Position numbers and translations under genes: made by a program
Source of the DNA: a virus
IMG/VR virus record: IMGVR_UViG_3300044675_005584
Coordinates: 1-64,000 of that record
DNA length: 64,000 nucleotides
Direction: 5' to 3' (one strand)
The notes under the pieces: generated by a model
Told to the model about the DNA's origin: nothing
The model's input: only the letters and a program-made list of their open reading frames with translations
Databases searched by the model: none
Shown: piece by piece, positions 12,923 through 64,000 of the stretch
How the letters are laid out: every line of letters begins with the position of its first letter
Numbering within the stretch: the stretch's first letter is position 1

Positions 12923-14059
12923 ATGACCAACTTCTATTGCGCAGCCCCCTGGCGGGGCTTGCATATCAACCCGCGCGGTGATGTAAAAACCTGCTGTGCT
13001 GGCAATCCCAACATGCTGGGCAATCTCAATACACAAACCATTGAACAGATACTTAATAGTTCGCTTATGGCCAAAATCCGCACCAGTCTGGCACAGGGCA
13101 AACCGCATGACTACTGTTCTAATTGTGTGAGAGCAGAAAGATTTGGTGCTGACAGCGAACGGCAATGGCACAACAATGTGAATCCTGGCTTTGACTATGC
13201 CACAGCCGGAGATCAATACCACTATCCTGTGATTGTAGATGTACGCTGGAACACCACTTGTAATCTGAGTTGTAACTACTGTGGCGAAGCATGCAGTAGC
13301 AAATGGGCCGCAATCAAAGGTATTCCATTCAAGTCCGGAGCAAGACCTTATTACGATGCAGTATGTGATTTTATTGCTGAACATTACGAACACATACATG
13401 AAGTGGCCTTGGTTGGTGGCGAACCTTTGTTGTTGCCAGAAAACGAACGTCTGCTAGATGTCATACCCCAGGATGCCATAGTTACACTGATTACTAATCT
13501 CAGTGTTGATTTAGAAAACAATAAAATTTTTAAAAAGCTATGCAATAGATCCCGGGTAGGCTGGAGTATGAGTTTTGACAACACAGGTGATCGACTGGAA
13601 TATGTCAGACACGGAGCCAAATGGGATCAAATACAGCAAAACTTGTCCACTATCAAAGGACTTATGAAGTCGCAAGGCCAATGGGGCGGCATACATGCAG
13701 TATACAATATTTACAATGCCACACGCATTTGTGAGTTGCGTGAGTTTGCTGAACAAACCGGAACCACTGTGCTATGGCAAAACTTGTTTCAACCCGAATA
13801 TCTTGATCCGTTTTTGCATGGACCCAGAGTTGCGCTAGAGGCCATTGCCGAGATTGAACGTTTTTATGCCATGAACATTGCAACACCCGCAGAAAAATCA
13901 TTCTTTGATCAGGCCTTGACCAATTATCATGCTGTGACCCAAGCCAGAAACGGCATTGAACACCAGTTTGCACAACATATTCAACGGATTGAAACCCAAT
14001 ATCACCCTGCCACACAAGGACAGTTTGCCCGATTGTGGCCTGAACTGGCAACGCTATGA
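12923..14059 (+). CDS. Radical SAM protein with SPASM/twitch-like N-terminus (1)
   Basis: 378 aa. The N-terminal 75 residues (FYCAAPWRGLHINPRGDVKTCCAG...GNLNTQTIEQILNS...YCSNCVRAE) have the Cys pattern of a SPASM/twitch auxiliary Fe-S domain. The radical SAM core follows, with CNLSCNYC near 113-120 holding the [4Fe-4S] cluster and VGGEPLLL as the SAM-binding GGE motif. Such enzymes make peptide or small-molecule modifications by radical chemistry; the substrate is unknown and no precursor peptide is visible nearby. The stop overlaps the next start (ATGA). Confidence 0.85.
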   Translation: MTNFYCAAPWRGLHINPRGDVKTCCAGNPNMLGNLNTQTIEQILNSSLMAKIRTSLAQGKPHDYCSNCVRAERFGADSERQWHNNVNPGFDYATAGDQYHYPVIVDVRWNTTCNLSCNYCGEACSSKWAAIKGIPFKSGARPYYDAVCDFIAEHYEHIHEVALVGGEPLLLPENERLLDVIPQDAIVTLITNLSVDLENNKIFKKLCNRSRVGWSMSFDNTGDRLEYVRHGAKWDQIQQNLSTIKGLMKSQGQWGGIHAVYNIYNATRICELREFAEQTGTTVLWQNLFQPEYLDPFLHGPRVALEAIAEIERFYAMNIATPAEKSFFDQALTNYHAVTQARNGIEHQFAQHIQRIETQYHPATQGQFARLWPELATL

Positions 14060-15195
14060 CAATCTTAAAGAGCCCTACATTTTGTTCTGCACCCTGGACC
14101 AGTTTAAATATTGATCAAACTGGTCGAGTAAGTCCTTGCTTTCACTGCCGTAGTGTGGTAGGCAATATCAAAGAGACGTCTATTCAAGAAGTTATCCATG
14201 GACCTGCATTAACAAGCATGCGCGAACACATGGCTCGTGGAGAATGGTACCCAGGATGTAGCTGGTGCAAAGAACTTGAAGAAACCACAGGCGTCAGTGG
14301 GCGTACAGTTCGATCTGCAAGCGAGCAAACTTTGAAAGCTATCGAGCATGATCCAGTTGATTATTTTGAACTACAACACATTGTGGTCAACTGGAGCAAT
14401 TTGTGCAATCTTGCCTGTACCTATTGCAATCCCGATACCAGTACAGCCTGGCAAAGCATCAAGGGTATTCCTATTAACCATGTCAAAAACGAACATCCAG
14501 ATTTAATTGAATTGATTCAAACACAAGGACACACTGTAAAAGGGCTGGCATTGGGTGGTGGTGAACCGCTTTTGCAAAAAGGTCTCGTGGATTTTTTGCA
14601 ATATCTTGTGCCCGAGCAGGTGCAAGTGTTGGTTACGACTAATCTCAGCATTGACATTACCAACAACCCCATATACAATGAACTACGCACCTGGCCAGGA
14701 GTACAGTGGCAAATCAGTTTTGACAATGTCAACAAAGATAAATTTGAATATGTCCGACATGGTGCCACGTGGGAAACTTTTGTTGACAATATTAAAATCA
14801 TGAAACAGCATGGGCAACGTGTAGTGGCACATCCTGCATATAGCATATATTGTGCTATGGATTTGGTTGAGTATTATGAATTTTGTATTGCGTACCAACT
14901 TGATTTATTCTGGTGCGAACTGATACATCCACAACATCTGGATGTAAGACGCTATTCAGAGTCAATACGACAACAAGCCATTGCGGAAATTGATCGAGTG
15001 GTGGAAAAATACAGTGATCATAAGAATCTGGCCATAGACACCTTGAAACGTTACCGTATGACCCTGGTAGACAATAGTTATCTTTATAAATTTCCAGAGT
15101 TTAACCCTCCACAGTTTCATGAAACAAAGGAACGAGAACTAAAAACAGCGCATACATTTGCACAACTATGGCCAGAACTGGAAAATCAAATATGA
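14056..15195 (+). CDS. Radical SAM protein with SPASM/twitch-like N-terminus (2)
   Basis: 379 aa, a paralogue of the preceding gene with the same layout: FCSAPWTSLNIDQTGRVSPCFHC...GNIKETSIQEVI, then CNLACTYC near 118-125 and LGGGEPLLQ. Shared downstream motifs include SFDN...YVRHGA and FAQLWPELE. The two may act as partners or as a heterodimer. Translationally coupled to both neighbours. Confidence 0.85.
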   Translation: MTILKSPTFCSAPWTSLNIDQTGRVSPCFHCRSVVGNIKETSIQEVIHGPALTSMREHMARGEWYPGCSWCKELEETTGVSGRTVRSASEQTLKAIEHDPVDYFELQHIVVNWSNLCNLACTYCNPDTSTAWQSIKGIPINHVKNEHPDLIELIQTQGHTVKGLALGGGEPLLQKGLVDFLQYLVPEQVQVLVTTNLSIDITNNPIYNELRTWPGVQWQISFDNVNKDKFEYVRHGATWETFVDNIKIMKQHGQRVVAHPAYSIYCAMDLVEYYEFCIAYQLDLFWCELIHPQHLDVRRYSESIRQQAIAEIDRVVEKYSDHKNLAIDTLKRYRMTLVDNSYLYKFPEFNPPQFHETKERELKTAHTFAQLWPELENQI

Positions 15196-57054: not shown

Positions 57055-58437
57055 ATGACAATGACAACAGATTTTACGTCAGAACAATTTAACGAGATCA
57101 AAGTGGCCGCAGACTGGATAAGAGACTTGGAAAGTAGCGATAGCCGATTACACAAAGAATCAGTGATTGAAAAGGCCTTGATGGCTGCCAAGTTAGGATC
57201 AGCCAATGCCCAATGCTTCTTGTTCAACTGCTATCAAACATACAACCCCTACTATGTGTTCGGTGTCAAGAAAGTGCCTGAGACTACTGGATTAGAAAAT
57301 TGTCCTAACCCATGGCCCAAGTTCTGGGCTATGTTGGAAGGTCTCCGTACTAGAAGCCTTACCGGACACAACGCCAAGACAGCCATTGAGGTCATGAGCC
57401 AACAGTTTGACAGTGTAGAATGGAACAACCTGTGCCGTAGAGTAATCATCAAAGACCTACGCTGTGGCATCAGTGAAAAGACTCTTAACAAGGTGCTGGG
57501 TAATACCGAATGGAAGATTCCAGTATTCACTTGCCAGTTGGCCACAGACAGCGAAAAGCACGTGGCCAAGATGACCGGAATCAAGCGACTTGAACAGAAG
57601 CTGGATGGAGTGCGTGTGCTGGCCGTTGTGACCAAGACCACAGTGAATCTATACAGTCGTAATGGCAAACCGTTTGATAACTTTCCACAGATTGTGAAAT
57701 CACTTGAAGATATCAAAAACAAGTTTGCCAAACTACTACAGGCCTACCCAAGAGGGATTGTGTTGGATGGTGAAATTATTGGAGAAAGTTTCCAAGCTCT
57801 AATGAAACAGGCACAACGCAAGACCGATGTTCAAACAGATGGCATGACTTATAGTGTGTTTGATATCATACCATTGGTGGACTTTGAACGTGGTTACTGG
57901 AATGCTCAACAACACAAACGTCTCCATCAATTAGAAGAATATCGTGCAGTATTTGAGATGACTGATTGCGTTCGTATCATGGATGGTATTGATGTGGACT
58001 TGGACACAGCCGAAGGGCATGATATCCTTAGACGCTATGCAGAGGACGCAGTCGCAGCCGGATTCGAAGGCATCATGATTAAAGATCTGGATGCGCCATA
58101 CGAGTGTAAGCGTAGCACTTTTTGGATGAAATGGAAGCCAGTTATAACAGTAGACTTAAATATTGTTGGATTCGAACAAGGCACTGGTCGTAATCTTGGT
58201 AGGTTGGGTGCCATAATATGTGAAGGAGTAGACAATGAGCGTAATATTTTTGTTAATGTGGGCAGTGGCCTTTCCGATGCTAATCGTGATGAATATTGGA
58301 GTGCCCGAGATGACTTACTTGGCCGAGTGGTTGAGGTGGCGGCAGATGCTGTCACACAAAATCAAGACGGAACTTACAGTCTAAGATTTCCAAGATTCTT
58401 GAGATTTCGCGGATTTGAACCTGGAGAAAAATTATGA
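57055..58437 (+). CDS. 30: ATP-dependent DNA ligase (gp30-like)
   Basis: 460 aa; T4 gp30 is 487. N-terminal helical DNA-binding domain, motif I EQKLDGVRVLA (adenylated Lys), motif III IVLDGEIIGESF, motif IV GFEGIMIKD and motif V WMKWKP. Joins nicks in replication and repair. Start may be 57055 or the ATG at 57061. Stop overlaps a small downstream frame. Confidence 0.93.
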   Translation: MTMTTDFTSEQFNEIKVAADWIRDLESSDSRLHKESVIEKALMAAKLGSANAQCFLFNCYQTYNPYYVFGVKKVPETTGLENCPNPWPKFWAMLEGLRTRSLTGHNAKTAIEVMSQQFDSVEWNNLCRRVIIKDLRCGISEKTLNKVLGNTEWKIPVFTCQLATDSEKHVAKMTGIKRLEQKLDGVRVLAVVTKTTVNLYSRNGKPFDNFPQIVKSLEDIKNKFAKLLQAYPRGIVLDGEIIGESFQALMKQAQRKTDVQTDGMTYSVFDIIPLVDFERGYWNAQQHKRLHQLEEYRAVFEMTDCVRIMDGIDVDLDTAEGHDILRRYAEDAVAAGFEGIMIKDLDAPYECKRSTFWMKWKPVITVDLNIVGFEQGTGRNLGRLGAIICEGVDNERNIFVNVGSGLSDANRDEYWSARDDLLGRVVEVAADAVTQNQDGTYSLRFPRFLRFRGFEPGEKL

Positions 58438-59800: not shown

Positions 59801-60475
59801 ATGGAAAATGTAATTTATCGCAGTGCCGAGGCTGTGAATTCAGCCATGCTGAGAGTGTACAATCAAATGTGCATGGCTGTAATAGTATCGGGAATCGTAT
59901 CTATGGCAGTGAGTAGCAGTCCAGCTCTAATGCAGTTCTTGTTTACAGGCGTGATGAAGTGGATAGTGATTTTTGCACCACTAGGCATGTCCTTGTTGTT
60001 GGGATTCAAGATACGAGACATGGCGCCTGACATGGCTAGACTCATGCTGTATCTGTTTGCGGCCTTGATGGGTGTGAGCTTTAGCATGATCTTTGTGGTG
60101 TTTGGCTTGGGATCTATTGTGAGTGCGTTTATGGGTGCGGCTGTGTTGTTTGGCACCATGACCATGTACGGATATTTTACCAAACGCAGTCTTGAAAGTG
60201 TAGGACAGTTCATGTTTATCGGCTTGATTGCAATTATCATTGCGTCAGTCGTGAACATCTTTATTGGGTCAACTGCTATGACCATGATGATTTCAGCCTT
60301 GGCCATTATTATATTCCTTGGACTCACTGCCTACGACACACAACAGATCCGTGAAATGGTCAGTGTGGAAAATCCTGAAGGCAATGCCGAGATAGCGGGT
60401 GCCTTGACCTTGTACATGGATTTCATCAACCTGTTCTTGAACCTGTTACAACTGTTTGGCGACAAAAAAGAATGA
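59801..60475 (+). CDS. Bax inhibitor-1/YccA-family membrane protein
   Basis: 224 aa with about seven transmembrane helices. NSAMLRVYNQMCMAVIVSGIVSM at the start, GYFTKRSL in the middle and FLGLTAYDTQQIREM near the end are typical of the bacterial BI-1 (YbhL/YccA) family. In E. coli YccA inhibits the FtsH protease; other members conduct calcium or protons. A phage copy may protect phage or envelope proteins or delay host death. Overlaps the next gene by ATGA. Confidence 0.88.
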   Translation: MENVIYRSAEAVNSAMLRVYNQMCMAVIVSGIVSMAVSSSPALMQFLFTGVMKWIVIFAPLGMSLLLGFKIRDMAPDMARLMLYLFAALMGVSFSMIFVVFGLGSIVSAFMGAAVLFGTMTMYGYFTKRSLESVGQFMFIGLIAIIIASVVNIFIGSTAMTMMISALAIIIFLGLTAYDTQQIREMVSVENPEGNAEIAGALTLYMDFINLFLNLLQLFGDKKE

Positions 60476-61331: not shown

Positions 61332-61876
61332 ATCAGTGTTCAGTATGCAGTTGTGAGCACACCGAAGACGAAGGTGGTATAGACGGATACTTTGGCATGT
61401 TGCCTGTGAGTTTTTGTCCCACCTGCTTCAGTTGCATGTGTGATATGGCTGCACAGTATCTGGACATTGGGCCAGACGGAGAATCAAATCCTGAACATGA
61501 CAACCTGATAGCACACCTGCGCGGTGTGCGTCATGTGGTCATAAACAGCGAGCATGGTGGATTCAGCGTTAGTAGAGCCGCTGAGTTGGCTTACCTGAGC
61601 CGCACAGGGACTGCCTACACTTTTCAAGATCGAGAGGATCGTGCCGCAACCTTGAGCAAAGGTCAATATATCATGGTAAATGATCAGTACTGGAATGGTA
61701 GCACCATCAAAAGGGATGATCCAGTACTGGTCGATATTGTGAGAGAAATGGGCGAAGAGGCCGATGGCGATTATGCTCGACTCAAGGTAGTACAACTGCC
61801 TGCCAATGTGGATTGGACTATTGAAGAATACGATGGCCGGGAATGGGTGGCTGAACGGCACAGGACCTGGACATAA
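61316..61876 (+). CDS. Cys-rich hypothetical protein
   Basis: 186 aa, TTG start inside the preceding gene. N-terminal CSVCSCEH and CPTCFSCMCD clusters likely bind zinc; the rest (HVVINSEHGGFSVSRAAELAYLSRTG...) is a small alpha/beta domain. Function unknown. Confidence 0.6.
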   Translation: MEEQVNQCSVCSCEHTEDEGGIDGYFGMLPVSFCPTCFSCMCDMAAQYLDIGPDGESNPEHDNLIAHLRGVRHVVINSEHGGFSVSRAAELAYLSRTGTAYTFQDREDRAATLSKGQYIMVNDQYWNGSTIKRDDPVLVDIVREMGEEADGDYARLKVVQLPANVDWTIEEYDGREWVAERHRTWT

Positions 61877-61892
61877 AAACGGTAAATACGAT

Positions 61893-63425
61893 ATGATATT
61901 TGGATTCACAATTTTGGCCACAGCATTGTTATTGAGCTTGGTGGCAGCTTATTATAGCATCATGGGACTTACGGCCATTTTTGCTGCGGCCACCATACCT
62001 GTGATCATCATGGGTGCCAGTTTAGAACTGGGCAAAATAGTTGCCACAGTGTGGTTGCACAATAACTGGCAACGTGCCAGCTGGCTGTTTAAAACCTATC
62101 TGATCCCGGCTGTGTTCTTTTTGATGATGCTGACCAGCATGGGCATCTATGGCTTCTTGTCAAAAGCACACAGTGATCAAAGCCTGGTGTCAGGAGATGT
62201 CACTGCCAAGATTGCCATATATGATGAAAAGATCAAGATTGAACGGGAGAATATAGATGCTGATCGCAAACAACTCAAACAAATGGACGAGGCTGTGGAC
62301 CAAGTTATGGCACGTTCAACTTCGGAAGAAGGGGCAAGTAGATCCAGTGCTATTCGCCGAAGCCAGCAGAAAGAACGTGCTCGCCTGCTTGCGGACATTA
62401 CAACATCTCAACAAAAGATCACTGCTCTCAACCAGGAGCGAGCACCGATTGCCGCGGAAGTTAGGAAAGTTGAAGCTGAAGTTGGTCCTATAAAATACAT
62501 CGCGGCCTTGTTGTATGGTGATAACCCTGATGCCAATGTGCTGGAAAAGGCTGTGCGATTTGTTATTATAATGATTGTGTTAGTGTTTGATCCGTTAGCC
62601 TTGTGCCTGATCCTGGCTGCTAACAAACAGTTTGAATGGGCACGACGTGGCACAGGCGGTTGGGTGCATGATGAAAAAACACAAGATGATGATAAAAAAG
62701 TAGCAGAATGGTTCGACCATGCCCGAGAACGAGCAAAATTTTGGGATAAACAGCAACAAGAGCCACCACCAGGTCCAGAGCCATTTAAATCAGGACCATT
62801 TGTGAGTGGTACATTTCAACAGGCCAAATACGAACAAGATGACGGACCATTGACTGACAATCAAGTTGAACAGATCCAAGCGACAGCTACGGAAGAATTG
62901 CCCAAGGGTGAGTTGCTTGCCAAAGAGGAATTGTTTCCAGAACCCACTGTTGCAGAAACTTTACCTGAGCCGGCATTGCCCCAGCCCACAGTTGATCTAG
63001 TGGTCAATGCCGGTAGTGACTATGTAGAAGTCAACGGCAAACGGGTACATCACAAGTCATTTGACATACACAGCCAAAATGCAGGTCATGCTGTTGAGCG
63101 ACATGCCGCTGCCCGCCTCCAAGCCGACAACGAGCTTGCCGGCACAGCTTCAACTACAGGATTTGGCATAGTCTTTCCAGATGTACCCAACAAAGGCGAC
63201 ACTTTTCTTAGAGTGGATCGGTTACCTACCATGTTATACAAATACAACGGACGAGACTGGATTGAAATAGACAAAGAAATCAGTACAAGTTATGTGTATG
63301 AAGATTCCTATATTGATCATCTCATCACTCGTATCAGCAGTGGCGAGTATGATCCTGATCTTTTGAGTGACATGGAACGTGAAGCAATCGCTCAACGATT
63401 ACGAACAAATCCACCAACGGTGTAA
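61893..63425 (+). CDS. Multi-pass membrane protein with coiled coil
   Basis: 510 aa from ATG at 61893. Three N-terminal transmembrane helices (residues 1-95), a long coiled coil (about 105-195: AIYDEKIKIERENIDADRKQLKQMDEAVDQ...), a fourth helix (FVIIMIVLVFDPLALCLILAAN near 225-245) and a soluble, acidic/Pro-rich C-terminal region. Not a named family, but the membrane/coiled-coil/membrane plan suggests an inner-membrane sensor or lysis regulator. A GGTAAATA box precedes the ATG by only 4 nt. Confidence 0.65.
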   Translation: MIFGFTILATALLLSLVAAYYSIMGLTAIFAAATIPVIIMGASLELGKIVATVWLHNNWQRASWLFKTYLIPAVFFLMMLTSMGIYGFLSKAHSDQSLVSGDVTAKIAIYDEKIKIERENIDADRKQLKQMDEAVDQVMARSTSEEGASRSSAIRRSQQKERARLLADITTSQQKITALNQERAPIAAEVRKVEAEVGPIKYIAALLYGDNPDANVLEKAVRFVIIMIVLVFDPLALCLILAANKQFEWARRGTGGWVHDEKTQDDDKKVAEWFDHARERAKFWDKQQQEPPPGPEPFKSGPFVSGTFQQAKYEQDDGPLTDNQVEQIQATATEELPKGELLAKEELFPEPTVAETLPEPALPQPTVDLVVNAGSDYVEVNGKRVHHKSFDIHSQNAGHAVERHAAARLQADNELAGTASTTGFGIVFPDVPNKGDTFLRVDRLPTMLYKYNGRDWIEIDKEISTSYVYEDSYIDHLITRISSGEYDPDLLSDMEREAIAQRLRTNPPTV

Positions 63426-63426
63426 C

Positions 63427-64000
63427 ATGTCAGAAATCAATACCTGTAATTTTTGTACCAAAACAAAAGATCAAGTATTAAAATTAATTGTAGGTGATGA
63501 TGCTGCCATTTGTAATGAATGCGTAAATCTCTGTAGCACCTTGTTGGTTGATACCAAAAAGTCACGACGCAACAAAGGCAGTCAGCTAAAAGTCCCAGAT
63601 CCGCGAGCAGTATGCGACTATCTTGATCAGCATGTGGTTGGACAACGTGATGCCAAACAAGTGATAAGTGTGGCTATAGTGAATCATTACAAACGTATCA
63701 GCAATCCTGATCCTGATATTGAAATACAAAAAGCCAATATCTTGATGCTGGGGCCAACCGGCACTGGCAAGACCTTGATGGCTCGCACTGTGGCAAGATA
63801 CTTGAATGTGCCTTTTGTGATAGCAGATGCTACCACATTAACAGAAGCTGGTTATGTAGGTGATGATGTCGAAAGTCTTATTTCTAGATTGTACATCGCA
63901 GCCAATGGCGATGTTGAACAGTGTGAACGTGGTATTGTATTTCTAGATGAAATTGATAAAATTTCTAGAAAAAGCGAAAGCAGTACAGTAAGCCGTGATG
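63427..64000 (+). CDS. clpX: ClpX ATP-dependent unfoldase (partial, cut by window end)
   Basis: 191 residues visible; bacterial ClpX is about 420. N-terminal zinc-binding domain with Cys7, Cys10, Cys29, Cys32 (CNFC...CNEC) as in host ClpX. AAA+ module: VVGQRDAKQVISVAIVNHYKR, Walker A GPTGTGKT (109-116), DATTLTEAGYVGDDVE with pore-loop GYVG (142-145), Walker B VFLDEID (171-177), KISRKSESSTVSRD. It could redirect host ClpP, or remodel complexes alone. Starts 1 nt after the upstream stop. The IGF loop that binds ClpP would lie beyond the window. Confidence 0.93.
   Translation, partial: MSEINTCNFCTKTKDQVLKLIVGDDAAICNECVNLCSTLLVDTKKSRRNKGSQLKVPDPRAVCDYLDQHVVGQRDAKQVISVAIVNHYKRISNPDPDIEIQKANILMLGPTGTGKTLMARTVARYLNVPFVIADATTLTEAGYVGDDVESLISRLYIAANGDVEQCERGIVFLDEIDKISRKSESSTVSRD

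Follow-up and report, generated by a model that had tools for sequence, protein, structure and literature searches.

The clpX gene at the end of the analysed window, a stretch of DNA comprising bases 1–64,000 of the 87,685-base virus record IMGVR_UViG_3300044675_005584, is confirmed at the level of sequence as an intact, functional-looking ClpX whose match to this family is far above chance. We put at roughly 70% the probability that the encoded protein serves as unfoldase in a Clp protease encoded largely by the phage, a reading in which both the partner and the activity are predicted.

The gene lies on the plus strand, beginning at the ATG at 63427, running to the end of the window (63427..64000) and continuing to a stop codon at 64626 of the contig, and it encodes 399 aa without any internal stop. 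It is separated by a one-base gap from the stop codon of the upstream gene, p539, and its own stop overlaps the start codon of a downstream bS21 gene (ATGA). In Pfam, the C4 zinc finger (PF06689, 50 bits) and the AAA_2 and ClpB_D2-small domains all exceed their cut-offs, as do the scores against two NCBIfam equivalog models, NF003745 (503 bits, cut-off 359) and TIGR00382 (473 bits, cut-off 371), and residues 6–388 align with solved ClpX structures. An earlier note on the window had identified the four-Cys domain, the Walker A and B motifs and the GYVG pore loop of ClpX, and all of these are present in the intact frame, the Walker motifs reading GPTGTGKT and FLDEID. The note had proposed looking beyond position 64,000 for the IGF loop and sensor motifs and for signs of a remnant; there, the frame stays open and an AIGFGA docking loop, a LIPEFVGR arginine finger and a GARGL sensor 2 motif are found. 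The RKH substrate loop reads RRT, with H230 changed, a feature of specificity that membership of the ClpX family does not require. ATP-dependent unfolding and ClpP binding are predicted activities of the phage ClpX, with the use of ClpP inferred from the docking residues.

A first scan yielded 27 related loci and a second scan at least 552 related IMG/VR stretches, and ClpX is also encoded by phages G, Lak, PA5oct, and Atu_ph07; the earlier note's view that a complete phage ClpX is rare therefore does not hold. Eighty loci of the second scan were kept, and because they were chosen by ClpX similarity and include some near-copies, counts among them are not independent. In a survey of 82 distinct phage ClpX proteins, the four Cys residues, the Walker A Lys, the Walker B Asp-Glu, the pore Tyr, the arginine finger, and the sensor 2 Arg are invariant. 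The GF of the IGF loop is likewise invariant, and its first position, I267, is I in 59 sequences, M in 22 and L in one. H230 is kept in 39 of the 82 and changed in 43. Because the RKH loop of Escherichia coli ClpX helps to choose ssrA-tagged substrates, its alteration predicts that the substrate specificity of these proteins may differ from that of bacterial ClpX.

The gene is embedded in a block with a fixed order, for which we counted, among the 80 kept loci, only those with enough flanking sequence to be eligible. The membrane protein p539 (61806..63425, plus strand) is the upstream neighbour of clpX in 75 of 75 eligible loci. Downstream, all on the plus strand, follow bS21 (contig 64623–64844; PF01165, 59.5 bits; 65/74 loci), an Hsp20 of the IbpA type (contig 64953–65393; PF00011, 68.7 bits; 61/61 loci) whose start is preceded by AAGGAG, and ClpS (contig 65464–65772; PF02617, 82.6 bits; 57/57 loci), and then, on the minus strand, a 263-aa protein, MPE263 (contig 65769–66560; 55/55 loci). 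Also conserved near the block is an ATP-dependent DNA ligase (57055..58437, plus strand; PF01068, 73.9 bits), in 59 of 60 loci. The suggestion of a proteostasis gene cluster in the earlier note is thus borne out by Hsp20 and ClpS downstream of clpX and by ClpP and ClpA in relatives. Its more specific proposal, a takeover module built on a BI-1 protein and FtsH, was rejected as the core of the arrangement: the BI-1 (Bax1-I) membrane protein (59801..60475, plus strand; PF01027, 176 bits) is accessory, occurring in 21 of 69 loci and exceeding the cut-off in three of 15 virus records, and FtsH was found in none of the 15 records of the window-phage clade that were searched.

The protein p539 has hydrophobic segments near residues 30–70, 99–118, and 252–270, and its AlphaFold model (mean pLDDT 76, pTM 0.43) suggests a long coiled-coil hairpin at approximately 130–225 and a small C-terminal beta domain; comparison of this model with the PDB gave no match at E ≤ 0.001 and none that was confident. 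Partial homologues of p539 occur in RAS14 and XacN1, with no clpX annotated beside them. A search of the region from 55 to 64 kb against Rfam gave no matches, and among promoter-like sites (23 vs 14 expected) and terminator-like sites (9 vs 5 expected) none stood out.

The contig is of phage type over its whole length, with genes for tail sheath, tail tube, terminase large subunit, SSB, UvsX, primase, a DnaB-like helicase, and ribonucleotide reductase. Several other genes were observed. A tandem pair of radical SAM/SPASM-type proteins lies near structural genes (12923–15195). A curli cluster (contig 66999–71068) encodes CsgF (PF10614), a FecR-domain protein, CsgG (PF03783, 149 bits), and a pair of proteins with curlin repeats. 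CsgF/CsgG recur in 16 of the related loci that were fetched, not all of them distinct, and relatives of CsgG occur in 47 IMG/VR loci; existing annotations name CsgG in pelagiphage HTVC008M and in Melnitz phages. A CHASE2 sensor fused to an adenylate/guanylate cyclase domain (contig 73303–75354; PF05226, PF00211) has relatives in further loci of the clade, and the contig also encodes a UV-damage endonuclease, UvdE (contig 80054–81103), and a fatty acid desaturase (contig 83457–84164).

The earlier note had also asked for a clpP gene beyond position 64,000, and the answer is divided: a divergent ClpP-fold serine peptidase, ClpP2, is encoded on the plus strand at contig 86904–87479 (PF00574, 97 bits), as supported by its triad and pocket columns, and neither a canonical ClpP1 nor ClpA was found in the 87,685-base fragment, so that ClpP2 is the only ClpP detected there. 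Only 206 bases separate the end of ClpP2 from the end of the contig; in contigs with both proteins ClpP1 sits approximately 1.7–3 kb past ClpP2, and the contig of the window phage stops where ClpP1 would follow in such relatives. Some relatives nevertheless carry ClpP2 alone in 83–200 kb of sequence. Partners were surveyed in 38 contigs, of which most are fragments and some are redundant: 25 encode canonical ClpP1, 20 ClpP2, 30 one or the other, and 13 ClpA. All three contigs longer than 300 kb encode ClpX, ClpP1, and ClpA together. ClpP1 has kept both its triad (S97, H122, and D171) and its docking columns (Y62, F82 [F/Y], I90 [I/V], and L114) in all 25 copies of the clade. In ClpP2 the triad is intact; a first impression that the catalytic Asp was missing was rejected, as D171 aligns with the Asp of LLPxxD. 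The docking pocket residues Y60, Y62, F82, and L189 are replaced by L, M, S/A, and S, respectively, in 18 of 18 copies, so docking of ClpX to ClpP2 in the standard way is unlikely. The phage ClpA (757–759 aa) has the ClpA model as its best match, at 810 and 804 bits, below the equivalog cut-off of 993, and bears an IGF-type loop.

These data bear on whether the main role of the phage ClpX is to hijack ClpP of the host, displacing host ClpX in ClpXP and redirecting the protease to phage-chosen substrates. The retained IGF loop, the lack of a canonical ClpP in the sequenced part of the window phage and the changed RKH loop, which fits a new choice of substrates, are all consistent with such retargeting, but most long relatives have a canonical ClpP themselves, in which the docking residues are retained, and we consider hijacking as the main role unlikely. 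Retargeting of host ClpP, as raised in the earlier note, is possible, but many relatives encode canonical ClpP (25 of 38 contigs), so a partner supplied by the phage is no less probable. Somewhat less probable still is a protease-independent remodeller with a part in replicating DNA or assembling virions, comparable to that of host ClpX towards MuA or lambda O. Replication genes do lie nearby, a ligase in the window phage and topoisomerase genes in Atu_ph07, SCTP-2, and Phosso, and control of replication was proposed by the authors who described Atu_ph07 (PMC6102473); against this, an invariant GF in the IGF loops of 82 copies would hardly be expected without a ClpP partner, and ClpP and ClpS co-occur with the phage ClpX.

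That the gene takes part in maturing the capsid, the ClpP-like proteins being the head protease, was rejected as very improbable. PHROGs assigns ClpP2 to head maturation protease, and Paride-type and RefSeq PA5oct records (GenBank OR805292–OR805295, NC_071039) give their ClpP the same label; yet a distinct S77 prohead protease, separate from the ClpPs, is encoded in four long relatives, and ClpP1 scores below the cut-off of the head-maturation model while exceeding, in G053, that of the ClpP subfamily model NF001368 (303 bits, cut-off 249) and falling narrowly under that of equivalog TIGR00493 (284 bits, cut-off 309). Given the company of ClpX, ClpS, and ClpA and the S77 protease in relatives of the window phage, the label on the Paride and PA5oct ClpP looks like a misannotation.

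The tree of ClpX proposed in the earlier note was built by a quick method from 83 proteins, including 47 bacterial ClpX that were partly chosen by similarity, and in it the 30 ClpX of the window-phage clade form one group (SH-aLRT 100) outside the bacterial sequences sampled, indicating an ancestry separate from these. Phage G ClpX places within Firmicutes, and SCTP-2, PA5oct, and Lak ClpX have long branches and unsure placement. Between close relatives the dN/dS of clpX is 0.04–0.07, with synonymous sites near saturation in several pairs, and the gene is under strong purifying selection. That clpX was recently captured from a host or is a chimera of the assembly, with no function in the phage, is favoured only by a slightly low clpX GC3 (0.34 vs 0.43 for the whole window) and is contradicted by the tree, by a best bacterial identity of approximately 50%, by purifying selection, and by neighbours unchanged in dozens of contigs, making it barely credible.

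Compared with bacterial ClpX of the ClpXP system, the window ClpX shares the domain order, zinc finger, catalytic motifs, and IGF loop, but it is at most approximately 50% identical to the bacterial ClpX found, falls in a separate clade and has lost H230 of the RKH loop; its gene neighbours are bS21, Hsp20, and ClpS, in contrast to the tig-clpP-clpX order of one bacterial contig. Clp matches in the INPHARED entry 'Acinetobacter phage MD-2021a' (CAKLQH020000005) were set aside because their tig-clpP-clpX order looks bacterial; CAKLQF020000005 gives the same matches for ClpX and ClpP.

Among cultured phages, we compared the Wroclawvirus jumbo phages (Arenbergviridae) PA5oct, MIJ3, Paride, and Callisto, whose ClpX is 38.6% identical to the window ClpX. 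PA5oct and Paride have the order of the clade, from ribonucleotide reductase through ClpX-bS21-Hsp20-ClpS and ligase to ClpP, and also encode ClpA; upstream of clpX, Wroclawvirus has other genes in place of p539. PA5oct and MIJ3 encode FtsH, unlike the searched records of the window-phage clade, and in PA5oct its gene immediately precedes the ligase and adjoins that of a protein with weak similarity to BI-1; according to the PA5oct record, ClpP and FtsH were detected by mass spectrometry. Salicola phage SCTP-2 has a p539 homologue, ClpX, bS21, and ClpS in the same order as the window phage, with ClpP elsewhere and no Hsp20 annotated in the block, but its ClpX is 35% identical and has the degenerate motifs GYMG and IGY. 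Atu_ph07 (Agrobacterium) and AP-J-162 and Phosso (Sinorhizobium) encode ClpX plus other Clp proteins, like the clade, with 46–48% identity to the window ClpX in Atu_ph07 and Phosso; unlike in the window phage, their clpX lies beside IF-3 and topoisomerase genes. Seven Clp proteins were reported in Atu_ph07 (PMC6102473), Clp genes were noted in AP-J-162 (PMC11242549) and a survey of jumbo phages lists ClpP, ClpS, ClpA, and ClpX (PMC7824862). Phage Clp genes, including a phage with multiple Clp proteins, are therefore already published, and what we describe is an unusually fixed and testable arrangement; full-text searches, which cover few subscription journals, returned no publication describing ClpX-bS21-Hsp20-ClpS as a fixed block.

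In the preferred reading, that of a largely phage-encoded Clp protease, the phage ClpX would act as an AAA+ unfoldase, predicted to be a hexamer, that pulls apart selected host or phage proteins and, by way of its IGF-type loops, delivers the unfolded chains to a ClpP chamber, preferably that of phage ClpP1 and alternatively that of the host. ClpS and ClpA would take N-degron substrates and Hsp20 would hold unfolded protein. ClpX would form the centre of a proteostasis block that T4-like jumbo phages have retained by vertical descent. This block, p539-ClpX-bS21-Hsp20-ClpS, is complemented by ClpP1/ClpP2 and ClpA genes at other sites of the genome, and it may let the phage control protein degradation during infection. 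More speculatively, and with appreciably less confidence, a complete, rewired two-motor Clp machine (ClpX, ClpA, ClpS, canonical and divergent ClpP, and Hsp20) might free infection from proteolysis by the host Clp system and destroy chosen host proteins, with p539 tethering ClpX to the membrane and a contribution to growth on dormant cells in relatives of Paride.

Phages are usually viewed as exploiting the Clp proteases of their hosts. Here, a large clade of environmental phages, together with cultured phages of Pseudomonas that are of interest for therapy, appears to supply the greater part of a Clp system in a fixed gene order. Clp goes unmentioned in the papers searched on PA5oct, Paride, and Callisto, and that on MIJ3 treats FtsH only. 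Cultured phages would thus allow a direct test of which proteins a phage degrades, and when.
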